DNA from: Cephalotus follicularis
Lineage: Eukaryota > Streptophyta > Magnoliopsida > Oxalidales > Cephalotaceae
Direction of reading: 5' to 3'
DNA length: 64,000 bases
Assembly: GCA_001972305.1 (NCBI GenBank)
Contig: BDDD01002926.1
Span: 1 to 64,000 of the forward strand
Shown here: piece by piece, positions 74 through 50,368 of the stretch
Numbering within the stretch: the first letter of the stretch is position 1
How the letters are laid out: every line of letters begins with the position of its first letter
Translations under genes and position numbers: made by a program
The notes under the pieces: generated by a model
Seen by the model: the letters and a program-made list of their open reading frames with translations, nothing else
Database searches by the model: none
Told to the model about the DNA's origin: nothing

Positions 74-310
74 GTCGACTCCTTTTCTGGAATTTTTTGT
101 GCTTTACAAAATAGAGTCGACTCCTTTTCTGGAAAAACTGTGTTTTATGAAAATGCCGTCGACGTCTTTTGAAACACGTCGAGCTCTTTTTAAAATGCGT
201 CGATCCTTTTTAAAACGCACCGTTTTTATAGCCAAATTTTAAAATCACGTCGACTCCTTTTCGAATCACGTCGACGTCTATTCATCAGACACTCGACTTC
301 TACATAAAAG
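74..310 (+). promoter_or_regulatory. GTCGAC-core motif cluster upstream of the element A ORF
   Basis: About eight copies of a motif with GTCGAC or CGTCGA core, most followed by a CT-rich tail (GTCGACTCCTTTT or GTCGACGTCTTTT), lie between 74 and 315. A TATA-like CATAAAAG is at 303-310 and the ORF starts at 524, so the cluster sits where an enhancer or proximal promoter would be. The 528-bp LTR of element A at 2191-2718 lacks this cluster, so it is not simply the other LTR copy. A regulatory role is inference. Confidence 0.5.
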
Positions 311-523
311 GTCGACATTTTGCTCACTTCTCCATTTCCCTCTCTCTTCTGCCTTTTCAAAAAATTTCCAATCTTACTGTTTTTCTTCAAAATCGTTTCT
401 TTCTAGTCGAAAACAACTCTCTCATCTCTTCTCTACTATAAACTTCGTCTTTCGTCTGTCACAATCCACTGATTCGTTTCACTCTTTGATCTTTCCCCTT
501 GTGCACACCACCTGCTTGTCAAA

Positions 524-1828
524 ATGCCTAGAACAAAGAAAGCCACCAAAAAGAAGGCTGTCTCACCCTCTCAACCAAAGAAATCTGCTAAGAAGCAGAG
601 ATTAGAGGTTAGGGAATCATCTTCTACATCTTCCCACTCTGATTCCTCTTCTGAACAGCCTGTCCCAATCCAAACCCTAAGTTTTGTAGAAAAGAGGGTC
701 ATGGGAGGCAGAAATGTAGATTTTGATTTCTGTTCCTCCGAATTCTCGTTTGTTTCATGGTTGGATGACCTACATTTACTCCCACTTGTCCAAATCTCTA
801 ACCCTTTTTATGTAAAATTGGTTAAAGATTTTTACTCAAATCTCAAAATGGTTTCCGAGCAAAACCAAGAATTTGCTATAACTTCTGTTGTTAAAGGTCA
901 GCGTATGTATCTTGATGCTAGAATTCTAGCTTCAATTCTTCATATTCCACATAACAGCATTTATGTTTTCGAACATAAAAAATGGCCGGAGGTTGAGGGT
1001 TTTCACCCTAACCAAATTCTCTCCGTTTTGTATCCAAATGATCCCAACGTCCATCCTAACATGGCCTTGACAACCAACCGTTTATCTGTTGATCATCGCC
1101 TCCTCCACCACCTCATTGTGCATCAAATTTTACCCACCGGTTGAGGGTACGCGAAATTATCTCGGATGCAAGTGTTTATCATGTGGTGCATCATTTCAAA
1201 GATTGATTTTTGTTTCCCTCTGTTGATTCTCAAGACTATGGTTCGTGCTTATTCCCAAAAGAAATCAGTCCTTCCCTATGGATCCCTTCTCACTCTTGTC
1301 TTCCTACACTATCACATTCCTCTTGAAGGAGAGACCCCTACAAAACTGAAAAAGGAAGACACGTACAATAAAAGCACACTGAATAGAATGGGATGGAAGA
1401 AGCAAGATGGTATATGGACGTATTGCCGTAGAGCGGATCAAGCTCCTAGGCTTGCAAGGGAGGAACAAGAGGACAACCCCCCTTGGGAACATGATGCCCC
1501 TGCAGCCTCTGCCCCTGCACAGACAGCTCCCTCATCATCCACTGCTGTTTACGATCGCATGATGGAATTTATGGAAGCAAAATTTTCTGCCATGGAAGCC
1601 TCTCTTAAAGAAGTCCACTCACGGCTTAATCGTTTGGAAGGAGATATTAGGACTATTCATAAGGACTCCCAACTCACTGATGACAACATCTTCTATGACT
1701 TAAAGGTCACGAAGAGACGCTTAAAGAGGATGGAGAGGAAGCTAGCCGAATCAAAGACCATTGACCAAGTTGAAGAAACTTCGGGAGATGAATCCGAATC
1801 TGATGCTTCCACTCCTGCTGAGTCTTGA
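524..1828 (+). pseudogene. Putative plant transposon protein (PTPD-type), one in-frame stop
   Basis: A single reading frame runs from ATG 524 to the TGA at 1826-1828, broken only by a TGA at 1142-1144. The N-terminus is lysine-rich (MPRTKKATKKKA), then serine-rich. From about residue 60 it resembles the 'putative plant transposon protein' family found in many eudicot retroelements: the RNVDF segment, the FYVKLVKDFYSNL segment and, after the stop, the conserved LPYGSLLTLVFLHY segment near the domain end. The C-terminal 100 residues are Ala/Pro/Ser-rich, then a charged heptad-like stretch (MMEFMEAKFSAMEASLKEVHSRL begins it) predicted to be a coiled coil, then an acidic tail. The biochemical role of this family is not established. 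The two halves are 206 and about 227 codons. With only one lesion it is either a young pseudogene or, less likely, decoded by readthrough. Confidence 0.65.
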
Positions 1829-2166
1829 TGATGTTATGTTGTTGTTTGTTTTGCTGATTTTGTTGTTGTTTTGTTGTTGCTATGAACCCTTGTGTTCATT
1901 GTTTTTGTTTTGGTTGTAATGAACAATGTTTGATTCTATGATATTAATGAAATGTTTAAGCAAATTGTTGTTTATGATTATGTTTCATGAATTGTGTTTA
2001 CTTTTGCATTAATGATTTTCTGCTGTAATGATTATGTTCTCTATATTTTTTCTCTTTATTTTCGTCATTTCCGATATTTTTTGAGCATTTATAATTTTAA
2101 ACCCAAGCTGTAATTTAGGGGGAGCTAATGTTTTTCTGCCCTTGTAGGATCTTTTTGATGATATAC

Positions 2167-2181
2167 AAAAAAGGGGGAGAA
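2167..2181 (+). other. Polypurine tract of element A
   Basis: An uninterrupted purine run (AAAAAAGGGGGAGAA) lies 9 bp upstream of the LTR start at 2191. This is the expected primer site for plus-strand DNA synthesis. Confidence 0.7.
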
Positions 2182-2190
2182 TGGTATATA

Positions 2191-2718
2191 TGTTAAGGCT
2201 CAAAGGAAAGGAATTTATGTTAGATTCAAAATCAATCACACAACATCAAGAGAAATCAAAATTCAAGCTATCTAGTGTGCAAAAGCTCAAAGTGCTCTAC
2301 ATTGTTCAACAAGCTTCTAAAGCTTCTTTCTTTGAGTGTATCTGAGTGTTTCTTGTTGTGAGCTTTATTTATTCATATCAACCTACTTAAGAGGTTATTG
2401 TAAACACATTTCAATTACTTGTAAAAAGAGGAGAATCCTCAAAGGCTTTGAGGTCAAAGTCTTGTGATTGAGGTCAATCACGAAATTGTGAGGTGTAACG
2501 ATTTGCTGCCTTAATCAAATCGAGCTAGTGGAAACTCAAGGAGCTCCCTTGGGAAAAGTGGACGTAGGCAAGAGTTAGCCGAACCACTCTAAAACTCGGA
2601 GAAGTTTTTCTTTCCTTATCTCTCTACATTTAAAGTTTTTAAATTTCCGCATATTCCTCAATATTCAATTCACCCCCCCTCTTGTGTATTGCAAGAGTGT
2701 TTTATTTCAGACCTTACA
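2191..2718 (+). repeat. 3' LTR of element A (528 bp)
   Basis: It starts TGTTAAGG and ends CCTTACA, an imperfect inverted pair, directly after the polypurine tract. Its distal part has features shared with the minus-strand SIRE-like LTR at 45439-46793: a 'GTGGACGTAGGC' segment, a 'TTCACCCCCCCTCTTG' segment near the end, and the CCTTACA terminus. The two LTRs therefore look like distant members of one LTR type, although this one is less than half the length. Confidence 0.65.
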
Positions 2719-4782: not shown

Positions 4783-6249
4783 TGTTACGCCCGGTATTTT
4801 TCCTGAATGTAATAGTTTGATTTATAATGTAATCATTAATCTGGATTTAATGAGAATGTTGAGTTTAACCTCAAAAGATGCTTGCAAACCCTAGTTATGG
4901 ACTTAGAAATGGAGTGTGTATGTTAAAGCTTGAAACGGCGCTGTTTTGGCCAAAAGACATCGACGTCTTTTGGAAAGACGTCGACTCCTTTGTGACCTAG
5001 GGCTCACGTGAATGCATGGGCATGCACGTCGACTCGAGAAGGAGGAATCGACACCTTCTTACGATTGGACAAAGACATCGACGTCCAAGGAAAGACGTCG
5101 ACGCCTTTGCATGAATGGCCAGCACGTTCTCCATCGACAGAACATCATGCTAGAAAGGATTGTTTAGGGGCTCACCTAACGCCTTTCTGAGTGCTCTGTG
5201 GCGTGTTGTGCATGTGGGAGTGTTTCCAGAACATGTCCTCACATGATTTCTGGGAGGGGAATCCTCACCTGCTACCTGCAATGTAAAGAATGGTTAAAGA
5301 ATGAGAAGGAAATGCAGAAAGAGAGTAGGTGGGAGAGAGCATGTGGAGGGCTGTTAAATGCCAAGAGGAAATGTCGGGGGAGAGCCTTCTGCATAAAGGA
5401 CACCCTCCCCGCTTGTCTCTCTCGTTTTACTATACTAGAAGAGAGAGAGAGTGAAACAGTGACTGTGTGTATTCCACCATTGTTGAAGCTTGGAGCTTGG
5501 ACCTTGGAGCTACTGGTGCAGCTGCAGGACGGATCAAGAAGGGCTGCTGTGACTTCGTGGATATTGTAGTCCTATGTGGACATACTGACTGTTGTGGTCC
5601 TATGCGGACATACTGTACTGTACTGTTTATTGGTCCTTTACGGACACTGCTGGTTGTTGACGTAGCCCTGGCCGGGTTACTACTGCACTGTTACTGTACA
5701 CATATATTTTTATATATGTAACACTGATATTTTACTGTACTGATATATGTATTTTCACATATGTATAAATTGGGTCTCCACTGAACTGCATCATTTATGC
5801 ATTCATATCATGACATGCATTATGTTAATCCCGATTTACTGTTATGACTTGGCCGAGTGAGGACAAAGGCTAACCCCCTACTGTAACAGATTGATGGAGT
5901 GGTCTTGACATGGAGCAAGCACGAAGATTTAAAGAGAAGACTTGTTATTTTCTCTTATTTTGGGGTTGTTGAACATTTATCATGATATTTGGTTTTTGTA
6001 ACATTTGATATTCGTTATCTTGTACTGTTTTGTTCACGCTCCGTTACTGGGCGATTAACTTTTATGACCTGTATTGTGTAACGTGTGGTATGGGACGCAC
6101 GTTACGTGTTGACAGCTTATGTTCTTTTATGCTTCCGCAACTGTTATGCTTGGAAAAGTTTTAAATTTTACGGTTTTTACATGAGCTGTATTTTTACGTT
6201 AATTGCCTTTACCGCTTTAATGCTGCGTTTTTGTAAACGGGGTGTGACA
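4783..6249 (+). mobile_element. Solo LTR inside G1 integrase, TSD GATGA
   Basis: It starts TGTTACGCCCGG and ends CGGGGTGTGACA, and is flanked by exact GATGA repeats at 4778-4782 and 6250-6254. G1 integrase coding sequence resumes on both sides. With no internal region or second LTR, this is a solo LTR made by LTR-LTR recombination. The ends, the GCATAAAGG box at 5391 and the 'GAGGACAAAGGCTAACCCCCTA' type segment near 5860 match the LTRs of N1, N2 and G3. At 1467 bp it is about 1.1-1.3 kb shorter than those, lacking the downstream GTCGAC cluster. Confidence 0.88.
4965..5115 (+). promoter_or_regulatory. GTCGAC-core motif cluster in the solo LTR
   Basis: Six or so GTCGAC/ATCGACGTC motifs occur between 4967 and 5112, including two back-to-back arrangements where AAAGAC and GTCTTT flank the core. 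A TATA-like GCATAAAGG is at 5391. The sequence ACGGCGCTGTTTTGG just before the cluster (about 4934) recurs next to the clusters in N1 and G3. Confidence 0.5.
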
Positions 6250-7328: not shown

Positions 7329-9522
7329 TGTTGGGAATGGAAGTTCATCCCCGGTAGCAAAAATGGGCGTAGGGTGCTAAGGGGACCAATTTTAATTTTT
7401 AGGTTTAAGGTAATGGAAGAATCCCATTAACACTCCATAATGAACAGGTCCAATTTTATCATTCCAGGTCTAAGGCGTTACATTAGCGGTGTCCCTGTAT
7501 GCCACGATATGGCTTGTTGGTTGTACATATACACTCTTGATTAATACAATTTCGAATCCCTTTCATATTCATGTGAAAATTTATATATTATCAAGGCTTT
7601 GTGGCTCATCCCAACCAACCAAAAGTAACAGAATAATTATTTATAATTAACTGTATGTCATATAGAGCCCTGTCACATCCAAAGGGTTGGATCTCGTGCT
7701 GAGAGGGCTATGAGAATGAGATCCTTATTCCCTGTGACAAATGTTCCAAGTCATAGGTTCACTTTCTTTGGGTGACCGGCTCTATTTATCTATATACGTT
7801 GCATATTTAAAAGTCCCAATCAGTCATAGGTGGACTGGGAATGAGAGGTTCCACTGGGAAGTCTACCGATAGTCTCAGTGCGAACATAGATTCATAGTTA
7901 TCGCAGCAATACTAGAGGTGACATTCATCCAAACCCTAGGCTGTGATCGGAGCCAAGTATGACAAGGGAAACACGACACATATGTCGATGACTGGATAGA
8001 GCGACTGGCTATTCGGACCATGATTGATAGACGTGGTAATACACGGATTTGGGGAGTGACTGGAGCTCACACCAGGGCTGCTCTGAAAGCTGTGTACTAT
8101 TAGTGTGGTCATACCAGAAATTGGGATGCTCTGAGAATTTATCATCATAACGGAGATCGACAGGATTTTGGGTCCTGCCTGACTTTGAACAGGTTCATAT
8201 GTGGTGGTACACATATCATTTAGTGAAAGGAAAACATCAGGGAATATGTTGTTTTGCTAGTGAGTATTTCATTTGATGGATTTAGGTTCATGCAATGCCA
8301 CGATGAAATATTCCATGAGAAGGCTTTTGAAAAAGGAAAAGAATGTACAATTTTTTCTTGGGCGTCGATGCCATGAAGAGCATGCATCAATGCCATGTCT
8401 AGTTGAGTTGTTGGGCGTTGACGTAAATGGATTACGTTGACACTGAAAAAACCAGTAGCTTTAGACGTCGATGCCATGGAGAGCATGCGTCGATGCCATA
8501 ACTGGATTGAGCCGCTGGGTGTTAACGCTATGGAGAGCATGGCGTTGACGTTTTAAAAACCAGTAGGTTTACACATTGACGCTATGTGTTCTACACGTCA
8601 ACGTAAAGAAAAATGAGACTCGACGCCGGTTTCATCTTATCCACGGTGTTGACGCCTAGATAATATGAGACACATGGCGTTGACGCCTAGACAGGCTGAT
8701 GCACGGTAATAGTAGGAAAGAGAAAGTCTGACTATAAAAGCTTGAGAGAAGCTTCTTCAACACACTTTTGACTTTCTTCTTTCTCTCTCTTCCCTGTCAT
8801 GTGTTCACTTCTTCCTGCTTGCATACGTGCCGACGCCTATCACCTACACGTCAACACCTACGTCGCCTGGTGTGATTTGCAGCCATTTTCAAGCCTCCTT
8901 TCACCACTCAAAGGTCATTATAGGTGGAGATAACTTGTACACTGCATCTTATCTACACCTAGAGTGATTTAGTATAGGTCTAAACACTTGGCTTGCATCC
9001 TTGGTTCTCCTATCCGTGGCTGGTGGAGGAGCTTGGAGCTTTTGGGGGTAAAGAGTAGAGGGAGCTTGTCTTGAAGGAAGGAGTCTTCACCATTGGTAAG
9101 ATTCTCCTCTTCTTTACCCTTTTGTGGTACCATGGCAGTGAGTGGGTACTAGAGTGTGTGTAACCTCCATTGCTTGCTTTGTTTGTCATCCCTTAGGGTT
9201 AGGGATGTTAGGGTATGGGTTGATTGGACTTTAGGCTAGGGTTTTGTGTGTTTCCTTGTGAGCCTATGTTTGGAGTCCATTTCTAGGGTTTACGGAAACC
9301 CTAACATTTTGACCCATTTTGCCCTATCCTTGGTTTTGGCTTAGGTTTGACTGGCTTTTCAATTAGGGTTCCTTGGCACTCATTGGGACAATTAGAACTT
9401 ATATTAGGGCATCACATTGCTTGGGGATTAATCTATTGGTGAAAAATAAAGTTAATCGGCCTTAAACCCTAATGTATGAATTGATAAGTCTTCCACTGCG
9501 CGTGGGCCATGCATTCCCGACA
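7329..9522 (+). repeat. C1 5' LTR (2194 bp)
   Basis: It runs from TGTTGGGAATG to CATTCCCGACA, a nearly perfect terminal inverted pair, and is followed at once by the PBS. The first half (about 7670-8215) is recognisably related to the LTRs of C2 and C3, including the GGATCTC...GAGATCC hairpin block near 7689-7722. The second half differs: it holds a TCGACG-type cluster, a CTATAAAAG TATA box at 8732-8740 and TTAGGG-like repeats at 9190-9300. The 3' copy is found in two pieces. No protein-coding gene is seen here. Confidence 0.85.
8360..8740 (+). promoter_or_regulatory. CGTCGACG-type motif cluster and TATA box in the C1 5' LTR
   Basis: About ten copies of GCGTCGATGCC, GCGTTGACG, CGTCAACG and related forms lie between 8363 and 8690. 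The TATA box CTATAAAAG follows at 8732-8740, so the cluster occupies the proximal U3 position. A second small group (GCCGACGCC, CGTCAACACC, ACGTCGCC) lies at 8829-8868, downstream of the expected transcription start. Most variants differ by C-to-T or G-to-A at CpG, as expected from methylation decay. Enhancer function is inference. Confidence 0.55.
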
Positions 9523-10929: not shown

Positions 10930-11370
10930 AGGAGGATAAGCGTCGATGCTTATTCCCAGGGCGTCGACGTCTTTACCCTAAGGCGTCAACCCCTCGTACA
11001 GTTATTCCTAGGCATTTTTGGACTAAAGACGTCGATGCTTTTCCAGCGACAACGATGTCTTTATGATACCAGGAGGTATCAGTTCGTGAATCTTGATTCC
11101 AGGGGGAGGAATTCGGCCCCTAAACCCTCGTATAAGCAAAACTCACCCTCTCAAGGCGTAAGACATGCTACTGTTTATCAGGATATGTAACCATAACATC
11201 ATTCCGTAAATAAACATGTGACCACGAGTGGCCAATTCACCTTCTGCAGTAAACACTACTGTTCTATGAATACCCAGAAAAGGCGTCGATGCTTTTACTC
11301 AAACATCGATGTCTTTTTCATTCACACGCGAAGACATCGATGTCATTAGGTAGACGTCGATGTCTATTCA
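10930..11370 (-). promoter_or_regulatory. Downstream GTCGAC-core motif cluster in N1
   Basis: About nine GCGTCGATGCT, GGCGTCGACGTC, ACATCGATGTC and similar motifs, most followed by TTTT or TTTA on the plus strand. In LTR polarity (minus) this cluster lies downstream of the TATA-like box at 11828-11836. Confidence 0.45.
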
Positions 11371-12129
11371 GCCCATAATGTCATTTCCATAGTTTTAACA
11401 CACCAGGTCATTACCCAAATCATCCATTACACCAACCAGTTCGAATATTCATGTAATTTGCACATGCATGTTCACTCCGTACATCACAGTAGTCATCACA
11501 ACAATTCCAGAGATTACAATTCATCCATTAATATGCAATTCATCAATGGCATTCATTATCTTAAAACTCAAAATGCATGTATAAGAATCATCACTTTCCC
11601 CTACCTCTGGTTTCAAGTTAGAAACCTTGTAAGTCCACCTCCTTGTGTTCCAAGATTCCGGTCACAGCAGCTCCAAGATCCGCTCAGCAGCTGCAATCCA
11701 TGAGCTCCAAGTCTCTAGCTCCAATCAAGCTCAACAATGGTGGCTCTCTCTTTCTCCCACTCACTAGTTTCCTCCTCTTCCTTTCCTTTGGTGTTTTAAA
11801 TGAGAGAGAGAGGTGGGGAGGGGGTTGTTATTATGCAGATGGCTCCTCTCCCTCTTTCTCCCTGCATTCAATGAACACTCTCGTGTTCTCTCCCTGTTTC
11901 CCAGTGAATTTCTGCATTTCATTTTGTTTCCTTCTCATGTTTTCTGCAGGTTGCATGCACACCCACACTTGTCATGTTCTTCCTCCTTCTTCAGTCATGC
12001 AGGTCAAGAGGCCATTATGCATGATCAACACATCTGCTTCCCGTGCCTCAAGGTGCCTGCAAGGATCCTAATTCCTTCCCTCTTGCACGTTACTCTGTCA
12101 GTTCATAACGTGACTGATATTCGTTTCAA

Positions 12130-12275
12130 AGATGTTGACGTCTTTCCTTAGACGTCGATGTCTTTTCCTCATTCATACGAGGATGTCGATGTCTTCGTCT
12201 ACGTCGACATGCATGTCCATGCATTCACGTGCATCTGGGTTCCCATAGGCGTCGACGTCTTTCCAAAGACATCAA
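12130..12275 (-). promoter_or_regulatory. Upstream GTCGAC-core motif cluster in N1
   Basis: About six motifs (GTTGACGTC, GACGTCGATGTC, GATGTCGATGTC, CTACGTCGAC, GGCGTCGACGTC, GACATCAACGC) lie between 12132 and 12273, about 300-440 bp upstream of the TATA-like box in LTR polarity. The adjacent CGCGCCGTTTTTTG (about 12292) matches the ACGGCGCTGTTTT-like segment beside the other clusters. Confidence 0.45.
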
Positions 12276-12458
12276 CGCGATTGTCCCAAAACCGCGCCGT
12301 TTTTTGTTTAACATACACATTTCTTTCCCCCAAAACCATATTTAAGGTTTGGAAACATCTTTGAGGTTGAAATCTCAAACATTTTCATTAATTCAAGCAT
12401 AAGATTACATCTTAAAATGAAGCATCACAATAAAGAAAACACCGGGTGTTACATGCTG

Positions 12459-14721: not shown

Positions 14722-17285
14722 TGTAACACCCGAGATTTTTATATGTTGTAATTTCACAATGTAAATGCACTTTATTATGGAATTAATAAAAAGATGGATT
14801 TCCGAATTTGATGATGTTTTCCCAAACTCTGATGATGTTGATTTTGGAGTTCAATTGTTAGAGAAATGTTAAAAGAGTAAACTTAGTTAAACGACACAGT
14901 TTTGAGGTTAAAGCGCTGATGCCTGGATTTGGAGCGTCGACGCTTAAGCGATTGAAACGCGCGTTTAAATTTAAACACATAAGCGCCGAGGCCTGCATGT
15001 AAACGTCGATGCTTTGCGGCGTGTTCTGCATGCACACAACAGCAGATGGACGTGTCGCATGGAGGTCAATTGTGCCACTTATCAAGAGTCTTAGCAAGCG
15101 CTTTAAGAACGTGGCATGCATGCTTTTGTTACAAGACCTACCTGTAACAAAAGGGCATGGGACAGAGGGAGAATCCCTGAGTGCATGGCTTGTGAAAGGG
15201 AAGAAATGGACACCTATTGCCCCAGGTTGCCCAAGTGGGAGAGGAGAAGAAAGTAGGAGGACATGCAGAGAAAAAAAAAAGAAATCTGCATAAAAGTCGA
15301 CTCCTCTCACCCCCTCTCATCTGTTATTGAAAGCCAGAGGAATTAGTGACACTATGAGTGACAAGAGAGAAAAAGAGAGTGAAAGAGAGAGAGAGACCAC
15401 CATTGTTGAGCAAAGGAAGCTTGGAGCTTGCACACCAACTACTGGGACGAACCAAGGAACCTTCAAATCGTACCTGGGAGCTCAAAGTGACTGGTTGGAT
15501 ACTAAAAAAGGTGTACTTTCAGCTTCTAACTTGAGGCCTGAGGTAGGGGAAGCCATAATTGTATTTTGTGTTCAATACTTGGTGTTTGTTCAGTGATGTT
15601 TATGCATGAATTTCATAGCATGGTGATCCATTTTTAGTCACTGAAATGATGCTACCTTGTACTAGATGTGAAATGTGATATTGCATGTCGTTTTTCTGGT
15701 CCTTATACATGTGGGATTGCATGTTACTATTATGGGAATGTCACTGATTGCTCATGTTGTGAGGTAGAAGACGACCACTGCACGAAACCGTCGACGCCTT
15801 GGGTAAGCGTCGACGCTTAATACTATGAACTGCGTTTTATATGTTGAAAGCGTTAAACGTCGACGTCTAAAGGGAGGAGATATCGACGCCCAGACACTGA
15901 AAGCGCTGCCGCTATGGGACTGAACGTCGACGCTTAAGGCACATAAGCGTCGACGCCTAAGGAATAAACGCCGACGCTTTAGAGTCCTGTTTGGACAATT
16001 TTTACGGTTTTGATACCCGACGATCCCGATTTCACCTAGGGTGCGTTAGAACATTTGTATGCATTGCATATACACTATTTACTGCCTGTTTGGTTACTAT
16101 TTGTGTATCGTTTATGATTTCTAAAGTTGTGATGTTTAGAATTGCACATGTGAACTCGGAATGTGCTATTTTGAATATGAAAATATGTATTGGTTAATAA
16201 CGTATTTTCGAACGAACTGGAAAACAATTTACACCACTGATTTGTTCAAGGTATTTCTACTACTGAAATTACATATTTCAAATATTTACTACTTTCAGAA
16301 ATATTTGAAAATGAACTGCTTGTTGTCGATCTGAAACGATCATCACTGTACTGTTTACTGCACTGTTTACTGTTTAATTCACTATTGCTCTGTGAATTTC
16401 TATGTGGTTGTGCTTGAACCACTGGTTGCATGGCGGAGGCTGCCAGCGCCGGCTAGTGGTGGGGTTGACCTAGGGGCCAGGAGTTGGCTGGGTGACTCAC
16501 TGTATTGTACTGTTGCCTCGCTTGGTTTCTTGGAGTAGGGACCGAAGTGGGAGTGTAGCGTGGGGCTAGGAGTTGGCAGCGTTACATATACTGCCTGACT
16601 GTTGTGGTCCTTTATGGACATACTGTACTGCCTGTTGGTCCTCTTTGGACATTACTGTGACTGTGGAGGTAACCCTGGTCGGGTTACTACTGTGCCGTTA
16701 TTGTTTACATATAATTCTTTTATATGTACCCACTGTTATTTTACTGTACTGCAAAATGTATATATTTTCCATATATATATAAACTGGTATTTCCTGCACT
16801 GCATCATTTATGCATACATCACATGACATGCATTTATTGTTGATCCCGAGCTACTTTTATGACTTAGCCAAGTGAGGACAAAGGCTAACCCCCTACTTTA
16901 CAAATTGATGCAGTGGACCGGTTGGACTGGCATGGGTGAAGAACAAGATGTTATGTTGTTTTGTTCTTGGTTTTACTTTTCTCATGTTTTGTAATAAACT
17001 GAGTTTTATTTAAGGACTAATGTACTGTACTATGGTTTGTTTAACGATAGGACTAATATTGTACTGTGATCACGCTTCGTTTGTGGGCTATTAACAACGA
17101 CGAACTTGTTTTGGGTAGCGTGCAGTATGGGATGCACGTTACATGTTTTTTAGCTTATGAATCTTATGCTTCCGCAATTGATGTCTTGTTTATAAGTTTA
17201 AATTTTATGGTATTTGCATAAGATGAATTTATATGTTAATTGCCTTACCGCTTTAATGTTGTCTTCTCGAAAACGGGGTGTGACA
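14722..17285 (+). repeat. N2 3' LTR (2564 bp)
   Basis: It runs from TGTAACACCCGAG to ACGGGGTGTGACA. A TATA-like GCATAAAAG is at 15288-15296. Around it are an upstream GTCGAC-type group (about 14930-15012) and a downstream cluster (15788-15972). Further on it carries short TACTGTACTG repeats (16340-16760) and the family segment 'AAGTGAGGACAAAGGCTAACCCCCTA' at about 16869. No protein gene is supported inside it. Confidence 0.85.
15788..15972 (+). promoter_or_regulatory. GTCGACGC motif cluster in the N2 3' LTR
   Basis: Eight copies of CGTCGACGC, CGTCGACGTC, ATCGACGCC and CGCCGACGC lie in 185 bp, several as AAGCGTCGACGCTT-like palindromes. It lies about 500 bp downstream of the TATA-like box, so inside the likely transcribed R/U5 part. 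Confidence 0.55.
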
Positions 17286-20808: not shown

Positions 20809-23800
20809 TGTAATGCCCAAAATGGCCAATAAAGCATATTCATAATGCGCGATAGTAAGCCCTATGTTCACATTATTATTGTGATTATTTTAGTGGCGGT
20901 TTGGATAATTAATATCGCAATGCGCGGATTAAACGAGACCCAAGCCTTAACATTTTGCTGGTATATACCAAGAAGATAGGCAAGTGGCTAAAGGAGAGAG
21001 GGAGAGGATACGGGCACATAACGTGCCCATATGAACAAAGAAAGAGAGAGAGGCGAGGGAGAAAGTAGCGGGAGAGAAAGAGAGAGAGAGGGACCTAGGC
21101 ACCGGAGAAGAAGAGAGACGTCGGCGGGCGAGACGGCGAGCGTCACGGTGGTTCTTCCATGCCCGGTAACCTTCCTCTTCCTTTTCTTCTCTTTTCTTTT
21201 TCCTTCCCCCCCGGCGCCTTATGCCCTTTCTCCTCTGTCGTGTATTCCACAATCGGTAATCATCAGAGGTGGGACCAGTCTTCACCTAGAAGGTTGGCTG
21301 CACCCATATCGGTGACAGTTTAGGCGTCGTTTGGGCAGAATCGGCTGGATTCCAATTTCCGAGTCGACTCAGAGGTTCGACTTGCTACCGCTTATAACTG
21401 CGTGATAAGATCTGAGTCTCAGCTAGTCTAGGGCAGGGATATGTTAATCTGATGATGGTGTGGCATTTTTGGGTGTTGACTGGAGTTTTGGACGACCAAC
21501 GAGTCAACTCAGTAAGTTGAACTCACTGCCGGCCGTGACAGCGAGTTTCGCGGTGAATCAATGCGAGTCTCTGGTAGCATTGTGTAGATCGCCCAATGTG
21601 GAGTCATTTTATGGGTGTCGTCGGAGCTTGGTGTGTTGGCCAGAATCTAGCCGGAGCTCTAGTGGCGGCAGTGCTTGGTTTCCGTGCATAGAGTTTAACG
21701 GAAATGTGTTGTACATGCAGGGTAAAGGAAATGGTCAAGGATAGAAGGTTTACGAGCTCAATTGCTAAGAGGTAGGCTATACTATTGGTTTCGCTTATGC
21801 ATTATGAATGGATTGTATGAACATGCCTGTTCATTGATGATTGTTGTTTAAATGTATGGTTATGGTTATGCATGCTTTCATGGTTTATGGCAAAGGGTAG
21901 GGTTAAACAGAGGGAAATGGAGATTGAAAGGAAATAAGACAGTTTGGGATTTTTACCCATTCTCTATTTTCTCTCAATCTAAGGGTTATGGATATGGTTT
22001 CAAATGGTTTTAACGCTGGTTTTATGTTTTAAATGATGGGTGAAGCTTATAGCTTCCTCTGAGTTGAATTTTAAAGGATTGAAAGCAATTTTCATGGATT
22101 TCACTGTGTTGACAGTGGCCCAGGGCATCAACATGTTCTTTGTACGCGTTGACGTGTTCTAGAGTGCCCAGAGCATCGATGCATTAGCTATGCATTGACA
22201 TCATATGTGTTTCTTCGCGTTCGCATGCTAACTAGCATGATGCTTTAACGCGGAAATGGGAAAGAAGGACATAAGTGTTGACGCTTTCAGTAAGCGTTGA
22301 CGCCTTATGTGTTATGAGTAGATGACGCTTAGTGCATGCGTCAATGCCTAAGGCACAATGCCTTAACCGTCGACACCTAGCACAAAGTGTCGACGCTCAG
22401 ACGTTACTCGTCGACGCCTAAACTTTACGCGTCAACGCCTAAAGCCCCTGTTTTACTTTGCCAAGTTTTATGGTTTTCAACCCAAATGACTTTCTTTCAA
22501 AAAGGACTCCATGGGAAGCCTCCCTAAGGCCTTGTAGCCTATGGAAATCCTATCATAACACTTTTAAACTATTGATTTCTCTTTGAATCAATCTTTAAAG
22601 AAAGTTTTATGAAAAGGGGTTTTTATACAAATAGCTTTCAAGAAGGGTTAGGATAGATCGATTGGGACACCTGGACGCGAATATCCTAATTAGACTACGT
22701 CTCTGTCATTTTATGGATTTGAAATGGTTTTCAATAAATGGTTAGGATAACTCAGTTGGTACATCTGGACGCGAATATCCTAATTAGACTTCCTCTCCAT
22801 TGTTTTCAACTCTGATAGGGACCAACAAAATTGAAATGGTTTAGGGAAAAGGGTTTATGGTTATGGAAAAGGGTTTAGGGTTATGGAAAGGGTTATGGTT
22901 ATGAAAAGGGTTTAAAGAGTTTTTAAAGGGTTTTGAAGGATGTGGGTCCTATGAGATCCTTTATAGTAGGTCCCTATCTTTTAAATGGAATATGGTTATG
23001 GTTTAAGGGTATGGTATGGTTATGGTTTTGGTTTAAGGGTATGGTACGGTTATGGTTATGGTTTATTATGGATGAGACCTTTCGGGATAACCCATTCATG
23101 ATCTTCATTTTCGTCATAAAATATGATGGGTGTAGGCTACATAGTATGGATATGGATTCCTCCTTTTCTAGATGACCTTTGGGCATCACCACATTGTAGA
23201 GTGCCGGGGCATGCTATGTATATGGCATAGATCACACAGACCTATTAGGGTTTAGGGTTGACCGAGCTGAGCTCTTCAAGATTGAGTTACGGGTCCCCCC
23301 AGGGGCTAGTACCTTCGAGACTAGTATTATGGTTTTAGGGTTGACCTTGCTCCTTCGGGATTGAGTCGCAGGTCCCCTCAGGGAGTATGTGGCCAGTGTT
23401 ATCCTATGCTCCACACGGCTATGACACGGAGAGTGTATGGACTATGATGGAGGTACTACCCTGGGCCGGAGAGGCCGGGAAAGTACTTGACCCTATGGAT
23501 TGATTGTTCCCATGGTATGGTTATGGATGGTTTATGGAGTGTTTGTAGGCCTATGGCCTTTGATGTGATATTAGGACTAGCGAAGTATACCACTGCTCAG
23601 GGATGGTTGGTATACTGTAGTAGTCCACACTTGGCATTCATACACGTGACACGCATATAGGGTTATACTATTGCACGCATAACATATTATTATGTTGTTG
23701 CATTACATGACATACTATTATACTGTTGCACACATACATTATTATACTGTTGCATGCATAACATATAGTATACCTACCGACTTTATGCCGCTGACCCATT

Positions 23801-25349: not shown

Positions 25350-25725
25350 CAACACGTCGACGCGTTGGTTCATAGCGTCGACGCCTGTGAGTGAAGACTT
25401 GATGCGCTGGAAGTGAGCAGTTGACGCGATGTCCATTCCGTTGCGTTTTTGTGCGTCAATCAGTGTTACACATCGACTCCTTGGCTATACGTCAAGGCCC
25501 AACTATGGTTAACGGAGCAACGTGATAACGCGATTCATGGAACTTGTTAGCACTAAGGAGGGGGGTAGTTAATGCGTCGACGCACACCCTGAATGTGTGC
25601 TCAACGCGTGAGCGCCTAAACATGGTATCTGATGAAGCTTAACGTGAATACGTTAACGCCTAGAATGGAAGAGTTGAAGCCTACAGTGATGGCGTCGATG
25701 CCTAGAGGATGGTGTCGACGCCCAA
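25350..25725 (+). repeat. GTCGAC-core motif cluster inside the G2 internal region
   Basis: About eight copies of ACGTCGACGC, GCGTCGACGCC, GTTGACGCG, GCGTCGATGCC and GTGTCGACGCC lie between 25358 and 25722, followed by 'AATGTCCTGTTTCTTATG'. That resembles the text after the G2 LTR cluster (AAAGCCCCTGTTTTACTTT). This lies outside the LTRs and may be an embedded LTR remnant. Confidence 0.4.
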
Positions 25726-36864: not shown

Positions 36865-37200
36865 ACAAAGACGTCGATGTCTTCCCAAAAGGCGTCGATG
36901 TCTTTTCCATCAAGCGTCGATGTCCAAGTCTCAGTGTCAGTGCGTTCTTCTTCAGAAGGCATCTATGTCCATTTCATACGCGTTGATGCTCAAGGTCTGG
37001 AACCCTAAAATGACAGCGTATTGTTGATGGCGTCGACGCGTTAAGGTAGGAACCTTAGGCGTCGACGTCTTTCACGTCAAAATCCAGGTAGGTAGCCCAG
37101 GGCGTCGATGTCTTTACATAGACATCGATCCCTTTCAATCAGTAGCAAGGCAAAACTAAAAAGACGTCGATGTTTATTGAAAAGGCGTCGATGTCTTTTC
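36865..37200 (-). promoter_or_regulatory. Downstream GTCGAC-core cluster in the G3 3' LTR
   Basis: About eleven copies of GACGTCGATGTC, GGCGTCGATGTC, GCGTCGACGCG and GGCGTCGACGTC lie between 36869 and 37198. The 5' LTR copy (43490-43620) keeps only the first half because of the 265-bp deletion. Confidence 0.5.
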
Positions 37201-38029: not shown

Positions 38030-38170
38030 GTTAAGGCGTCGACGTCTTTCATCAACATTACACAAGGACGTCGATGTCCTCATCCGGATTGATGTGCATG
38101 TGCATGCAGCCAACGTGAGCCATTTTCCCTCAAAGGCGTCGACGTGATCCTAAAGGCGTCGACGTGTTTT
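38030..38170 (-). promoter_or_regulatory. Upstream GTCGAC-core cluster in the G3 3' LTR
   Basis: Copies are GGCGTCGACGTC (38036), GACGTCGATGTC (38068) and GGCGTCGACGTG twice (about 38135 and 38156). The segment AAACACGTCGAC then AACAGCGTCATTTT lies next to the last copy. The 5' LTR has the equivalent at 44387-44510. Confidence 0.5.
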
Positions 38171-42150: not shown

Positions 42151-42163
42151 TGCTCTGATACCA
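42151..42163 (-). other. G3 primer-binding site (tRNA-Met type)
   Basis: The minus strand reads TGGTATCAGAGCA, four bases after the 5' LTR end at 42168. Confidence 0.85.
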
Positions 42164-42167
42164 CTGT

Positions 42168-44688
42168 TGTCACACCCCGTTCAGGAAAATGCAACACTAA
42201 AGCGGTAAAGGCAATTAACATAAAAAATACAGCTCATGCAAAAACAATAAAAATTAAAACTTTTCCAAGAATAACAGTTGCGGAAGCATAACAAGTTCAT
42301 AAGTTGTAACCACGTAACGTGCGTCCCATACCGTACGCTACCCAAATACAAGTCATCAAGTTAATCGCCCATAAAACGGAGCGTGAATTACAGTACAAAA
42401 TAAAACTCCATCAGAAACAATACCATTACAATGGCACATCCAAAAACCATAATCCACATGGGTTTAATACAAAACAGGAGGATGAACAAAATCAAGAATA
42501 TAACAATTTCATCTTCGTCCATGCCGATCCAACAGTCCACTGCATCAATCTGTAAAGTAGGGGGTTAGCCTTTGTCCTCACTCGGCTAAGTCATAATAGT
42601 AATCGAGATCAACATAATGCATGTCATGATATGAATGCATAAATGGTACAGTGCAGTGGAGACCCAGTTTATACATATATGAGATGTATATACGTATAAC
42701 AGTACAGTAAACTATCGGTGTTACATATATAAGAAATATATGTATACAGTAACAGTACAGTAGTAACCCGGCCAAGGCTACATCAACAATCACAGTAATG
42801 TCCGTAAAGGACCAATAAACAGTACAGTATGTCCACATAGGACCACAACAACAGTCAGTATGTCCACATAGGACCACAACAACAGTATGCATAGCGCCGC
42901 CAACTCCTGGCCCCACGCTACACTCCCACTCCGGTCCCCACTTCGGGCAACCGAGCGAGGCAACAGTACAGTGAGTCACCTAGCCATGCTCCTGGCCCCT
43001 AGGTACAACCCTACCACTAGTCATCACTGGCAGCCTCCGCCATGCAACTAGTAGTTCAAACACAATCACATAGCAATTCACAGAGCAAACAGTGAATTCA
43101 AACAGTAACAGTACAGTAAACAATAATGATCGATTAGATCGACAACAGGCAGTTGTTTTCCGAAATGTTTCCAAAAATGACAACATTTGAAAATAGATAA
43201 TTTCAGTACAAAATATCAATAAATAGTTTCAGTAGTGTAAATTGTTTATCCGTTCAGTCGAAAATACGTTATTTAACCAATACATATTTTCATACTCAAA
43301 ATATCCTATTCTGAGTTCATATTTGCATTTCTAAATACCAATACTTTAGAAATCATAAACAATTCACAAACAATATACAATCAGGCAGTAAACAGTGCAT
43401 ATGCAATGCATACATATGCTCAAATGCACTTTAACAGGAATCGGGATCCTTTCGTATCATTGGATGAAGAAAACCCCAAAGAGTAACTAAGACGTCGATG
43501 TCTTCCCAAAAGGCGTCAATGTCTTTTCCATCAGGCGTCGATGTCCAAGTCTCAGTGTCAGTGCGTTCTTCTTCAGAAGGCGTCGATGTCCATTTCATAC
43601 GCGTCGATGCTCAAGGTCTGGAACCCTAAAACGACAGCGTATTGTTGATGGCGCAAAACATATCTAGCATATCATGGCATCAATCCAGTAACAAAATCAG
43701 TACAAGATTTATGCATTTTATACATCCAAAACCATAAACCGTGCATGGATATCAAACTCGAAATTACAGTATGGCTTTCCCCTACCTTTCGTCCCAAGTT
43801 AGGAACTGGAAGTCCACCTCCTTTCGTTTCCAAACAGGTCACAGCAGCCCCTCTAGGTCCGTCCCGTAGCTGCACCAGTGGTTCCAAGCTCCAAGCTCCA
43901 AGCTCAACAATGGTGGAAACGTTTTCTCTCCTTTACTTTCTGTTTCTTACCCTCACTGTGTCTCTCTCAAGTGTATGGTTCTTTCCCAAACAGTAACAAC
44001 CGAAGGTAAGGGGTGAAGGATGTCTTTTATGCACTCACCCTCGTTTCTTCTTCCTTTGTGCTTGTTTTGCAGGTCACATGTGCCTAGGGTATATCCCCAT
44101 CTTTGCATGCAGCAGCTGGGTTCGTTTCCCCGTCCTTCATGCCAGATAGTTCCCCATTCATTCTATCCATCCCTTGCATGCACACATGTTCCATTCTTGT
44201 TGCATTTATTTCATGTACACACACAAGCCACACATGTCCTCATCATTTTAGTCATGCAGGTTAGGTAGTAAGGTGCATGCCCAACACGTCCTAACTCATG
44301 CCTCAAGGTGCCTGCAAAAGGCCCCATCTCAATTTCCCCTCGCACGTTATTTGTCAGCAGAGTAACATGCATGACATTCGAAGTTAAGGCGTCGACGTCT
44401 TTCAAAAGACGTCGATGTCCTCGTCCGGATCGATGTGCATGTGCATGCAGCTACGTGAGCCATTTTGCCTCAAAGGCGTCGACGTGATCCTAAAGGCGTC
44501 GACGTGTTTTCCCCAGAACAGCGTCGTTTTAGCCTTTCAACATTCTTTTAACATTTAACACAACAATTCAACATAATAGAGATGGGAAAACATCACCAAA
44601 TTCGGAAAATCCATCCTTATATTAATTTCACAATTAAAGGTACAAATACATTGTGAAATTATAATACATGAAAATCTCGGGCATTACA
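42168..44688 (-). repeat. G3 5' LTR (2521 bp)
   Basis: It has the same termini as the 3' LTR (TGTAATGCCCGAG and GGGTGTGACA). About 265 bp are deleted at 43651 (GTTGATGGCG joined to CAAAACATATC). GTCGAC copies are at 43490-43610 and 44387-44510, with a TATA-like GCATAAAA at 44025-44032. Confidence 0.9.
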
Positions 44689-44693
44689 GCCTA

Positions 44694-45438: not shown

Positions 45439-46793
45439 TGTAAGGTCGATGATAGGTCCACAAAAGCTACCAAGAGGGGGGTGAATTGGTTATGCGAAAA
45501 ATAACCACCTCTTTTTGAAACTTAAAAACAAGAGTGATAAAAGCAATCAAACTTTAACCGATGCAAGCAAACAATAAATCAAAATACACTTAAACAATTA
45601 TAAACAAGAAAATAACTTGCAAATAATTAAAAGAGTAAGAGATAGTGAGTGCGAACAAGTTTTATATTGGTTCGGCCCAATGATGCCTACGTCCACTCTC
45701 CCAAGCAGCAACTTGAGGTTCCACTAGAACGTAATCCCTTTGATCACAAATAGTTTCTCTGGATTTTTACAAGTTCAATCCTAACTTGGACTTTTGCGAG
45801 TTCAATCCTAACTCGGATTTTTTTGGAAGCTAAATCCTAACTTGAGTAAGGTACTAACGACCTTGGGTATACAATGATTTCTGAATGTTTGAAGTGTTTA
45901 AAACCTCTCAAAATGTTGAATAACAGAAAACACTGAAGCTCAGAATCTCAGAAAATAAGAACTTAGCAAACTACAACTTTTTCTTGCTCTTTGTATTGCT
46001 TGGATATTGCTTGCTTTTGTTTGATTGTTTTTCTTCATGGATTCAGCCTCTATTTATAGCCTTCTGAGGAAAATAGTCATTGCTAGAGTTCAGGGACTGA
46101 TCAGAGAGCCATTGGAGCTATTCAGGGAAAGGATCACCATTTCAGTACCTTCAAAATTTGCAGATTCTGTGTTTAGCTGTCATTGGCGTTGACGTGTACG
46201 CATGGCGTTGACGTCTATCCTCTTATACGTTGACTCCTATTGCTTTCTACATTAATACTTCAAGCTTCTCTTCAGCATCATTTGTATTCACGTTGACGCA
46301 CATACATATCGTTGATGCTAATATAATTTGAGTTGACTCCATAATATCTTTGCGTTAACATCCAAACCTACTTTCTGAAATGTGCATCATTTACGTTGAC
46401 GTCCAATTTTGGCGTTGAAGTCTTCAGACAAGGTGTTGATGGCACTTATTTTCTACGTTGACGTCCAAGCCATTGTCATTGTCATCTTCCTCAAAAAGTT
46501 GACGTAAATCATAATTTCGCAGCACGTTGACACGGATAGTGAATATCGTTGACTAGAATCATCTTTTCAATCCCAGAACGAGTATCCATTCCCAGAACGT
46601 CGACGTATAGAATATAAGCATTGACACCCAAAGTACTGATATGCAAGTTTAAGCTTTATTGTAACACAAGTTATCTTTTTTACAGTGCAAGTTAACTTTG
46701 TTAGCTGAATATTTCACATCAAACACACATATTAGGTGTTTTGTAATCATCAAAACAAAGGATAAACAAGGATTATAACATATAATGTCAACA
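45439..46793 (-). mobile_element. SIRE-like LTR in G2, beside C2
   Basis: On the minus strand it starts TGTTGACATTATATG and ends ATCGACCTTACA. It has a TATA box CTATAAATAG (46050-46059) and a GTTGACG-type cluster upstream of it (46185-46640). The end features (GTGGACGTAGGC segment, TTCACCCCCC segment) resemble element A. It is 14 bp from C2. Flanks TACCT and GTAGA do not match, so there is no TSD. No internal region is attached. Confidence 0.65.
46185..46640 (-). promoter_or_regulatory. TTGACG/CGTCAACG motif cluster in the SIRE-like LTR
   Basis: About fourteen copies of GCGTTGACGT, ACGTTGACGTC, ACGTTGACGC and ACGTCGACGT lie in 455 bp, upstream of the TATA box in LTR polarity. Most have TTGACG on the plus strand, the decayed form of TCGACG. 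CGTCGACG itself survives at about 46598. Confidence 0.5.
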
Positions 46794-47332: not shown

Positions 47333-49842
47333 TGTAATGCCTAAAATGGCCAATAAAGCCTATTTATAATGCGTGATAGTAAGGCCCTATGTTTGCATTA
47401 TTATTGCGATTATTTTAGGGGCTGTTTGGATAATTAATATCACAATGCATGGAATAAACGAGACCCAGGCCTTAGTATTTTACTGGTATATACCAAGAAG
47501 GAGGCAAGTGGCTAAAGGAAAGAGGGAAAGGACACAGGCGCATAATGCGCCGTATGAAGAAAGAAAGGGAGAGAACAGTGGGAGAGAAAGAGAGAGAGAG
47601 AGAGAGGGAGATGGGCACCAGAGAAGAAGAGAGAGACGCCGGTGGGCGAGATGGCGAACGTCACGGCGGTTCCTCCATGGCCGATAACCTTCCTCTTCCT
47701 TTTCCTCTCTTTTCTTTTTTCCTTATCCCCGGCACCTTGCGCACTGTCGCCTCTGCCATGCGTTCCCCCACTGGTAATCATCACAGGTGGAGCCGGTCTT
47801 CACCTAGAAGGTTGGATACACCAATATCAGTGATAGTTTAGGTGTCGTTCGATCGGATTCCAGAGCCGAGTCGACTGAGTGGGTTTAACTCGCTACCGCC
47901 TATGACCACGCGATAAGCGTCGAGTCTAGGGCAGGGATACATTAATCTGATGATGGTGTGGCATTTTTGGGTGTTGACCGAAGTTCTGGAAGACCGATGA
48001 GTCAACTCAGTGAGTTGAACTAACTGCCGTCCGTGACAATGCGTGTCGCGGTGAGTCTCCGGCAGCATTGTGTAGATCACCCAATGTGGAGTCATTTTAT
48101 GGGTGTTGCCAAAGCTTGGTGTGTTGGCCGGAATCTAGCCGAAGCTTTAGTGGCGGTAGTGCTTGGTTTCCATGCATAGAGTGTAATGGAAACATGTTGT
48201 ACATACAGGGTAAAGGAAATGGTCAAGGATGGAGGGTTTACGAGCTCAATTGCTAAGAGGTAGGTTATACTATTGCTTGCGCTCATGCATTACGAATGGA
48301 TTGTACGAACATGCATGTTCATTGATGATTGTGTGCTAAATATATGGTTATGGTTATGCATGCTTTCATGGTTTATGGCAACGGGTAGGGTTAAACGGAG
48401 GGAAACAGAGATTAAAGGGAAATCGGAGAGTTTGGGATTTTTACCCATTCTCCATTTTCTCTCAATCTAAGGGTTATGGATATGGTTTTAAATGGTTTTA
48501 AAGCTGGTTTTGTGTTGTAAATGATGGGTGAAGCTTATAGCTCCCTTTGAGTTGAATTATGAAGGATTTAAACCAGTTTTCACGAATTTCACAGTGTTGA
48601 CAGTGGCCCAGGGCATCAACGTGTTCTTCGTGCGTGTTGACGTGTTCTTGAGTGCCCAGACCGTCGACGCATTAGCTATGCGTTGACGCCATATGTGTTT
48701 CTTCGCGTTCCCATGCTAACTAGCATGATGCGTTAAGGGGGAAATGGGAAAGAGGGACATAAGCGTCGACGCTTTCAGTAAGCATTGACACCTTATGTGT
48801 TATGAGTATCTGACGCTTAGTGCATGCGTCGATGCCAAAGGCACGATACCTTGACCGTCGACGCATAGCGCAAAGTGTCGACGCTCAGACGTTACGCGTC
48901 GACACCTAAACTTTACGCGTAAATGCCTTAAGCCCCTGTTTTACTTAGCCAAGTTTTACAGTTTTCAACCCAAATGACTTTCTTTCAAAAGGGACTCCAT
49001 GGGAAGCCTCCCTAAGGCCTTGTAGCCGATGGAAATCCTACCTTAACACTTTTAAACTATGGATTTCTCTTTGAATCAATCCTTAAAGAAAGTTTTATGA
49101 AAAGGGGTTTTTATACAAATGGCTTTCAAGAAGGGTCAGGATAGCTCGATTGGGACATCTGGACGCGGATATCCTAATTAGACTACCTCTCCATGATTTT
49201 ATGGATTTGAAAGACTTTTCAATAAAAAGTTAGGGCAGCTTAGTCTGGACATCTGGACGTGAATATCCTATTTAGACTTCCTCTCCATTGTTTTCAACTC
49301 CGATAGGGACCAACAAAATGGAAATGGTTTATGAAAAAAAGGAAAAGGGTTTATGGTTATGGAAAAGGGTTTAGGGTTATGGAAAGGGTAATGGTTATGA
49401 AAAGGGTTTTTGATGGATGTGAGTCCTATGAGATCCTTTATAGTAGGTCCCTATTTTTTAAATGGAATATGGTTATGGTTTAAGGGTATGGTACGGTTAT
49501 GGTTTGTTATAGATGAGACCTTTCGGGATAACCCATTCATAATCTTCATTTCCATCATGAAGTATTATGGGTGTAGACCACATATTATGGATATGGATTC
49601 CTCCTTTGCTTGATGACCTTTGGGCATCACCGTATTGTAGACTGATAGGGTATGCTATGTATATTGCACAGATCGCATAGATCTATCAGGGTTTAGGGTT
49701 GATCGAGCTGAGCTCCTTCAGGATTGAGTCTCCGGCCCCCTCAGGGGCTAGTACCTTCGGGACTAGTATTATGGTTTTAGGGTAGACCTTGCTGAGCTCC
49801 TTCAGGATTTAGTCGCAGGTCCACTTAGGGAGTATGTGGCTA
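47333..49842 (+). repeat. G2 3' LTR, truncated at its end
   Basis: It starts TGTAATGCCTAAAATGG, matching 20809. Equivalents of the 5' LTR are in the same order, including the TCGACG cluster (48595-48925) and the TATGGTTATGG repeats. It stops at about 49842 (GTGGCTAG, equivalent to 23395), missing about 985 bp, and passes directly into the C1 LTR. Several short indels versus the 5' copy. Confidence 0.85.
48595..48925 (+). promoter_or_regulatory. TCGACG-type motif cluster in the G2 3' LTR
   Basis: Copies include GTTGACAG, GCGTTGACG, CCGTCGACGC, GCGTCGACGCT, GTGTCGACGCT and CGTCGACACC. Same position and order as 22090-22445. Confidence 0.55.
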
Positions 49843-50368
49843 GTTTTTCATCTTATTGATGGCGTTGACGCCTAGATAATATGAGATGCAAGGCATTGAC
49901 ACCTAGACAGGCTGATGCTCGGCTGCAGTAGGAGAGAGAAAGTCTGACTATAAAAGCTTCAGAGAAGCTTCTTCAACACACTTTTGACTTTCTTCTTTCT
50001 CTCTCTTCCCTGTCGTGCATTCTCTTCTTCCTACTTGCATATGCGTCGACACCTATCGCCTACACGTCGATGCCTACGTCGCCTGGTACGATTTGCAGCC
50101 ATTTTCAAGTCTCCTTTCACCACTTAAAGGTCATTATAGGTGGAGATAACTTGTACACTGCATCATATCTACACCTAGAGTGATTTAGTATAGGTCTAAA
50201 CACTCGGATTGCATTTTTGGTTCTCCCATCCGTGGTTTTTGGAGGATCTTGGAGCTTTTGGGGATAAAGAGTAGAGGGAGCTTGTCTTGAAGGAAGGAGT
50301 CTTCACCATTGGTAAGAACCACTTCTTCTTCTCCCTTTTGTGGCGTCATGGCAGTGGGTGGGTGCTAG
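49843..50368 (+). repeat. C1 3' LTR, first segment
   Basis: It matches 8623-9150 of the 5' LTR, including the GCGTTGACGCCTAGATAATATGAG segment, the CTATAAAAG box (49948-49956) and the 'CTTGTCTTGAAGGAAGGAGTC' segment. Everything equivalent to 7329-8622 is missing. Ends at the E insertion. Confidence 0.8.

Follow-up and report, generated by a model that had tools for sequence, protein, structure and literature searches.

Arrays of one palindrome in a nest of retrotransposons

The first 64,000 nucleotides of contig BDDD01002926.1 of the Cephalotus follicularis assembly GCA_001972305.1, hereafter called the window, are made up of a nest of long terminal repeat (LTR) retrotransposons, as judged from self-comparison, primer binding sites, Pfam searches of ten open reading frames (ORFs) and the reading of junctions. 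Within this nest, words built around GTCGAC recur, mostly in arrays in the non-coding DNA of the elements, and these arrays are the subject of this report (Table 1). GTCGAC occurs 57 times in the window versus 6.7 times in shuffled sequence (standard deviation 2.4, maximum 13), the core CGTCGACG occurs 27 times versus 0.1 (maximum 1), and there are 19 clusters of at least three GTCGAC, GTTGAC or GTCAAC per 300 bp versus 0.6 (maximum 4). The comparison was made with 100 dinucleotide shuffles of the window, and shuffling within 500-bp blocks gave almost identical values. A preceding sequence-only reading had pointed out such clusters and had named an excess over shuffled sequence as their check; the motif is present in every interval that it located, and the excess is there. 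Further arrays lie at 10.94-11.36, 15.79-15.98, 43.49-43.65 and 44.39-44.51 kb and in the element P1, and the first or the second of these may be the “N1” that was named without coordinates.

Flank counts and an 18-bp matrix show that symmetric flanks extend around GTCGAC, giving the palindromic unit AAAGGCGTCGACGCCTTT. At a score of at least 7, the matrix finds 119 sites versus 10.9 per shuffle (30 shuffles), and 16 arrays hold 111 of them; this count is partly circular, because 34 of the same sites had served to train the matrix, and the word counts are not. When hexamers were ranked in 13 regions, element A, both G3 LTRs, G2b, N2 and the SIRE-like LTR had GTCGAC or a word overlapping it at the top of the list (CGTTGA in the SIRE-like LTR), and in C1, CGTCAA tied for first; in P1, CAGTCG ranked third, and in G2, GTTGAC and GTCGAC ranked 10th and 15th, behind simple repeats. 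The LTR of the copia element X, the 3' LTR of element A and two coding controls do not have the motif in their lists of enriched words. The observed/expected ratio of CpG is 1.38 in the 16 array intervals versus 0.61 elsewhere, an excess that exists partly by construction because the motif itself contains CpGs.

Many units are variants of the palindrome. None of the 10 matrix sites at 8360-8700 in C1 contains an intact GTCGAC, and among the 11 cores at 46188-46604 in the SIRE-like LTR one is intact, 10 read GTTGAC on the plus strand and none reads GTCAAC. In the sense of the element, G3 units read CATCGACG 19 times and CGTCGATG once. Such variants had been regarded as CpG-decayed forms. The one-handedness of the SIRE-like LTR and G3 is not what simple decay of palindromic sites would be expected to give; C1 is mixed. 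Within a one-handed family, the pattern looks like amplification of a changed unit or a site that has turned polar. The flanks also fall into two types, GACGYCTTT in element A and most of G3, and GACGCTTA/GACGCCTA in G3 copy c, G2b, N2 and C1, with the SIRE-like array intermediate. The two arrays within one G3 copy are alike in flank type (r=0.75 in copy c, 0.89 in d/e and 0.62 in b), whereas the copy c arrays, both of the second type, correlate at r=0.13-0.37 with the first arrays of element A and of G3 copies a, b and e.

Table 1. Motif arrays and associated features of the window (positions in nucleotides; sites are matrix sites unless stated otherwise)
Feature	Position	Strand	Remarks
Element A array	68..322	+	8 sites, 6 with intact GTCGAC; internal, before linker ORF of Sirevirus-like element
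Element A, candidate internal promoter, TATA box CTACTATAAAC	437..443	+	121 bp after last core, 87 bp before ATG
Element A ORF, PF20167 (Transposase_32) match	524..1828	+	one in-frame stop, codon 207
Element A, two AGGGGGAG polypurine tracts, then 3' LTR	2117..2718	+	tracts at 2117 and 2172; LTR ~2182-2718; polyC signal at 2668
G3-type LTR copy a, array	4953..5108	+	5 sites
C1 LTR array	8358..8861	+	10 sites upstream of TATA at 8733, 2 downstream
G3-type LTR copy b, second array	10936..11367	-	6 sites
G3-type LTR copy b, U3 array	12128..12282	-	6 sites
G3-type LTR copy c, U3 array	14909..15016	+	4 sites; TATA-like box at 15289
G3-type LTR copy c, second array	15784..15981	+	7 sites scoring at least 7
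G2 LTR array (LTR 20809-24381)	22142..22442	+	7 sites scoring at least 7
N2 array, unclassified	25350..25725		9 sites; between G2 primer binding site and gypsy fragment
G3 3' LTR (copy d), second array	36867..37198	-	9 sites
G3 3' LTR (copy d), U3 array	38032..38169	-	4 sites
G3 5' LTR (copy e), second array	43488..43614	-	5 sites
G3 5' LTR (copy e), U3 array	44385..44509	-	4 sites; TATA-like box at 44031
SIRE-like LTR	45439..46793	-	polyC signal at 45486; ends read from sequence, target duplication not found
SIRE-like LTR array	46182..46631	-	11 sites scoring at least 7; upstream of TATA at 46058 (minus strand)
G2b LTR array	48609..48909	+	10 sites
C1b array	49858..50077	+	4 sites; truncated at 49846
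P1 variant array, 3' LTR copy	51824..51964	-	3 GTCGAC
P1 variant array CAGTCGACTG, 5' LTR copy	61779..61986	-	10 sites, at most 2 mismatches

Both copia-type and gypsy elements carry the arrays. G3 is a gypsy element (35547-44688) with a 5-bp target duplication, GCCTA, gypsy gag and reverse transcriptase-RNase H (RT-RNaseH), and it has arrays in both of its LTRs (copies d and e). Three more G3-type LTRs (copies a, b and c) are present, and at 13.2-14.9 kb lies a piece of G3-type body that matches a Tf2-type SH3 domain strongly and a chromo domain below the cut-off. Copy a had been listed as a solo LTR (4965-5115) apart from G3, but it is of the G3 type: it matches the G3 LTR at 80% over 5564-6249 and another G3-type LTR at 74% over 4782-5109. 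G2 has one LTR at 20809-24381 and another starting at 47334; its LTR start, its polypurine tract and the gypsy fragment behind its primer site lead us to regard it as gypsy. P1, which has gag, RNase H and integrase, is gypsy as well; one of its LTRs, near 50.4-55.6 kb, is interrupted, and the other lies at 60.35-63.15 kb. The same palindrome is firmly placed in gypsy LTRs by G3 and probably by G2, and P1 has the variant CAGTCGACTG, with 10 sites versus 0.41 in 200 shuffles. C1, whose LTR ends at 9522, is taken to be copia because the body that nesting would assign to it holds a copia gag (17786-18472). Whether C1 could be a Sirevirus was considered, with signs both ways: its LTR/primer binding site junction fits the variant named in PMC2829016, but its LTR end lacks the polyC integrase signal ATTCACCCCCC, which is found only twice in the window, at 2668 (+) and 45486 (-), and its putative body is 71-77% identical to that of X, a copia element without an array whose polypurine tract reads AGTGGGAG.

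Some other features of the nest should be mentioned. The G3 element is inserted in the LTR of X. The G3 LTRs contain a 31-bp tandem repeat (36171-36266 and 42792-42887). CATGCA, which we take to be an RY-type word, is enriched in two of them (12 copies in 14719-17286 and 15 in 42168-44691, versus about 2 in shuffles) and almost never falls inside the palindrome units. At 49846, the G2b LTR breaks off and a second C1 LTR starts, in mid-array. A search of Rfam at gathering thresholds gave no match in the window.

Spacing of the units and position relative to candidate promoters

Five arrays outside G3 were compared, those of element A, C1, G2, N2 and the SIRE-like LTR, with G2b and C1b excluded as second copies. 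Their spacings of up to 115 bp between units are phased at 10.5 bp (n=40, R=0.76), and the phasing statistic of 23.1 is twice the maximum of 11.5 reached in 5000 jittered sets. Most of the 40 spacings are 19-23, 31-32, 41-44, 50-53, 63 or 73 bp, and the rest are 28, 85, 95 and 103 bp. The phasing is also seen with spacings above 24 bp only (n=22, R=0.74, p=0.0002) and with those that are not near a multiple of 21 bp (n=12, R=0.73, p=0.004). Growth of one 21-bp unit is therefore not its whole cause. All 16 arrays together give R=0.59 at 10.5 bp (n=91), and of the nine steps in the P1 variant array all measure 20-22 bp except for one of 28 bp. A period of 20.7 bp was rejected, since it fitted a seven-array set more poorly (R=0.40) than 10.5 bp did (R=0.67).

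Where a TATA box can be recognized, the arrays often lie upstream of it, their ends being 121 bp away in element A, 49 bp in C1 (which has two further sites behind the box) and 130 bp in the SIRE-like LTR; in these three cases the position is promoter-proximal. Counted from the LTR start, G3 copies c and e have their first array at about 185-300 bp and a TATA-like GCATAAAAG at 570 and 657; the second array, at 1046-1256, is downstream of this box.

Element A had been thought to carry its cluster in an LTR; instead, the array precedes an ORF, after which come two AGGGGGAG tracts and a motif-free 3' LTR. This Sirevirus-like element is present only with its 3' part, and the window starts downstream of any pol. 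The TATA box between the array and the ORF is a candidate internal promoter, and the position of the ORF suggests an envelope-like gene. Relatives of the ORF at 473-1144 are numerous: all of the 120 matches listed, out of 350, are from C. follicularis, the best having 95% identity. The structure predicted for the element A protein from 43 of these 120 sequences is unusable (mean predicted local distance difference test score, pLDDT, 43), with only a helix at residues ~283-352 being fair. Since the PF20167 ORF has the array and its TATA box on one side and, on the other, the polypurine tracts that precede a Sirevirus-like 3' LTR, this widespread “putative plant transposon protein” family may be an envelope-like linker gene of Sireviruses.

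Descent and turnover of the arrays

Do the arrays of different families share more than the unit? Unmasked BLAST of between-family pairs (within-family pairs, with names sharing the first two letters, were left out) gave 25 rows at E<=0.01, seven of them between element A and G3, with matches such as 86 bp at 65% between the SIRE-like LTR and G3 and 57 bp at 68% between C1 and G2. After the 18-bp units had been masked, 29 rows were left at E<=0.1, and these touch no array unit or spacer except for a CT-rich match at C1 8778-8816. Once the units are masked, the arrays of different families accordingly show no wider homology, in agreement with the sequence-only reading, in which the LTRs did not align by eye outside the clusters. 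Its description of the hosts as unrelated LTR families is right in that copia-type and gypsy elements share the clusters, and it counts too many families in that the solo LTR and G3 are one family, the array of element A is not in an LTR and the gypsy families may have a common ancestry. The G2, G3 and P1 LTRs all start with TGTAA(T/C) followed by a CC-rich stretch, and their arrays lie 1.05-1.63 kb from the LTR start (1262-1626 in G2, 1157-1363 in P1). It is plausible that they descend from one ancestral array, so we count gypsy once, and the safe count of lineages with arrays is three (Sirevirus-like, C1 and gypsy).

Within a lineage, the units turn over. In the G3 a-b pair, divergence outside CpGs is 0.12 in the sites, 0.33 in the spacers and 0.35 outside the array. 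In the c-d pair, the flanks of the second array align (0.24) and the array between them has been rebuilt, with divergences of 0.26 in the sites and 0.55 in the spacers; in the d-e pair all divergences are low.

Known systems and competing explanations

The closest described system is the repeated motif (RM) boxes of Sireviruses (Bousios et al. 2010, BMC Genomics 11:89, PMC2829016); this and the other papers cited are drawn on here in part only. RM boxes are palindromic units forming CpG islands that precede the TATA box and, in elements with an envelope gene, that gene as well. They were found in 13 of 21 Sireviruses and 0 of 30 classic copia elements, in a data set without gypsy, and were defined by at least eight copies per element; here, partial elements have 8 (element A), 11 (SIRE-like LTR), 12 (C1), 10 (G2b) and 13 (G3 copy d). 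The likeness lies in high-copy, palindromic, CpG-rich units that cluster like CpG islands (the CpG ratios given above) and, for part of the arrays here, in a place upstream of TATA in LTRs or upstream of a putative envelope gene. The position is matched by element A, C1, the SIRE-like LTR and the U3 arrays of G3 copies c and e, and not by the second G3 arrays, and the Vitis motif CGGTCGACCG in that paper contains the GTCGAC core. Element A and the SIRE-like LTR also share the Sirevirus polyC signal, and element A has several AGGGGGAG tracts before its 3' LTR.

There are differences too. The core is CGTCGACG here and CGG-CCG there, although Tnd-1 in the paper's table also lacks that signature; the hosts here include gypsy LTRs and C1, and only element A and the SIRE-like LTR are Sirevirus-like; and the parts of the paper used here do not discuss helical spacing. 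Apart from the core word, the SIRE-like LTR and element A fit the RM-box anatomy, with two further differences in element A, its array-free LTR and its attachment site, AA/TG at 2180-2183 after the last tract, instead of the AT/TG expected from the AT reported in 20 of 21 elements. In maize, Sirevirus LTRs have palindrome clusters in their regulatory region (PMC5311732, PMC10760457), with one palindrome being the top motif in the structured regions of both copia and Helitron elements; that palindrome is another one, and maize gypsy elements generally lack a structure peak, whereas here gypsy LTRs have arrays (PMC10760457). Brassicaceae COPIA LTRs likewise hold sites for one host factor in several copia families, with heat-responsive elements that are mostly species-specific and in one case grew by duplication; there, the factor is known (heat shock factor) and the LTR analysis concerned COPIA families (PMC5059998). 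In full-text searches of openly licensed PMC papers, the titles and abstract openings listed gave no report of arrays of this kind in gypsy LTRs or in Cephalotus. The proposal of an undescribed system thus stands in part: judged from the parts of PMC2829016 used here, the Sirevirus side was published in 2010, and what goes beyond the descriptions found is the palindrome, with its CGTCGACG core, in gypsy LTRs and C1.

We consider the arrays to be cis-regulatory binding arrays of the RM-box kind, read by one symmetric DNA-binding factor, and give this interpretation of the sequence a probability of roughly 0.6. Each unit would be a dyad of about 16-18 bp for a two-fold symmetric protein, most likely a host transcription factor. 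With units mostly two helical turns apart, and some three, four or five, the bound proteins would sit on one face of the DNA and could act jointly on a promoter: the one downstream of the array in the SIRE-like LTR, C1 and the G3 U3, and the internal one in element A. The second G3 array, behind the TATA-like box, could be an enhancer. Lineages in one host would share the core through dependence on the same factor, possibly having gained their arrays independently, and within a lineage the arrays would be handed down and reshaped as units are gained and lost.

Several observations weigh against this interpretation. Two G3 arrays alone fail to show the 10.5-bp phasing (n=10, R=0.33). The TATA pattern has no match in copies a and b of G3, no sense-strand TATA was found in the regions of G2 and N2 that were scanned, the P1 array lies downstream of both sense-strand TATA candidates, and the 3' LTR of element A (~2182-2718) has no array. 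The one-handed variants of the SIRE-like LTR and many G3 units differ from the palindrome by one base and are not palindromes. In the younger pairs, sites are not clearly better kept than their surroundings outside CpGs (0.045 versus 0.065/0.073 in G2, 0.069 versus 0.084/0.080 in C1), and they diverge more when CpG changes are counted (0.116 versus 0.085 in G2, 0.181 versus 0.101 in C1). The flank types were spotted post hoc in few arrays.

The arrays might instead have no shared function, having arisen by slippage and inheritance, or having been exchanged between elements, and persisting passively. The evident gain and loss of units, the similar gypsy offsets with their possible single ancestor, and the cross-family matches of unmasked array pieces fit this idea, and the palindrome shared by maize copia and Helitron elements shows that sharing across superfamilies is possible (PMC10760457). 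We nevertheless hold it unlikely, since the matches vanish when the units are masked and slippage of a 21-bp unit does not predict phasing at odd multiples of 10.5 bp. It is rather unlikely that the arrays act in RNA, where neighboring units would pair as hairpins, either as a source for small-RNA silencing or to the benefit of the element RNA. Folding does beat dinucleotide shuffles, with z -7.1 in C1 and z -4.6 in element A, and palindromic regions of maize Sireviruses are hotspots of small-RNA mapping (PMC5311732, PMC10760457), but folding is weak in the SIRE-like LTR (z -1.65, equaled by 7 of 100 shuffles) and in G3 copy c (z -2.2, equaled by 5 of 200), and pairing needs neither 10.5-bp phasing nor self-complementary units.

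The reader of the arrays could also be encoded by a transposon, for instance by a Sirevirus-like element, as an anti-silencing or activating factor like VANC, with the other families as passengers. VANC targets in VANDAL elements are dense tandem arrays of same-orientation units in non-coding DNA that are gained, lost and changed together (PMC5735166), which resembles the second G3 arrays rebuilt between conserved flanks and the one-handed G3 and SIRE-like units; the ORF family of element A is also very numerous in Cephalotus. On the other hand, VANC motifs (YAGTATTAY, not a palindrome) are tied to one family of DNA transposons, which encodes the factor (PMC5735166), whereas the motif here spans several retrotransposon families, and nothing, least of all the poor protein model, connects the element A protein with DNA binding; we regard such a factor as distinctly unlikely. 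The C-box/as-1 enhancers suggested by the sequence-only reading, at which plant bZIP proteins would bind GGCGTCGACGCC, are highly improbable, because the excess of GACGTC (29 versus 6.7) comes from GTCGAC-centered units in 26 of 29 cases, ACGT is present in 58 of the 119 units and missing from 61, TGACG/CGTCA is at background (71 versus 76 expected) and TGACGTCA is absent from the window (0 versus 0.7). The WRKY W-box was also rejected as a candidate: 2 of the 81 TTGACC, TTGACT, GGTCAA and AGTCAA words in the window lie inside units.

To return to binding arrays read by one factor, a wider idea may be added as a speculation. A Sirevirus-like copia element, another copia element and several gypsy families, all with phased arrays of one palindrome, might follow a host-specific regulatory code, in which the core goes with the host and not with the lineage, and flank types that shift together within an element might track the moving specificity of a single factor.

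Sirevirus palindromic promoter arrays were described without a known binding factor, and the internal promoter before the envelope gene was supported and not conclusively identified, at least in the parts of PMC2829016 used here. Element A offers a concrete candidate for such a promoter. Helical spacing is a stronger argument for cooperative protein binding than repetition alone. With one unit in the gypsy LTRs and C1 of the same host, the identity of the array reader becomes testable: if one factor reads the arrays, one labeled probe should find it, and this factor would act on several element families at once.

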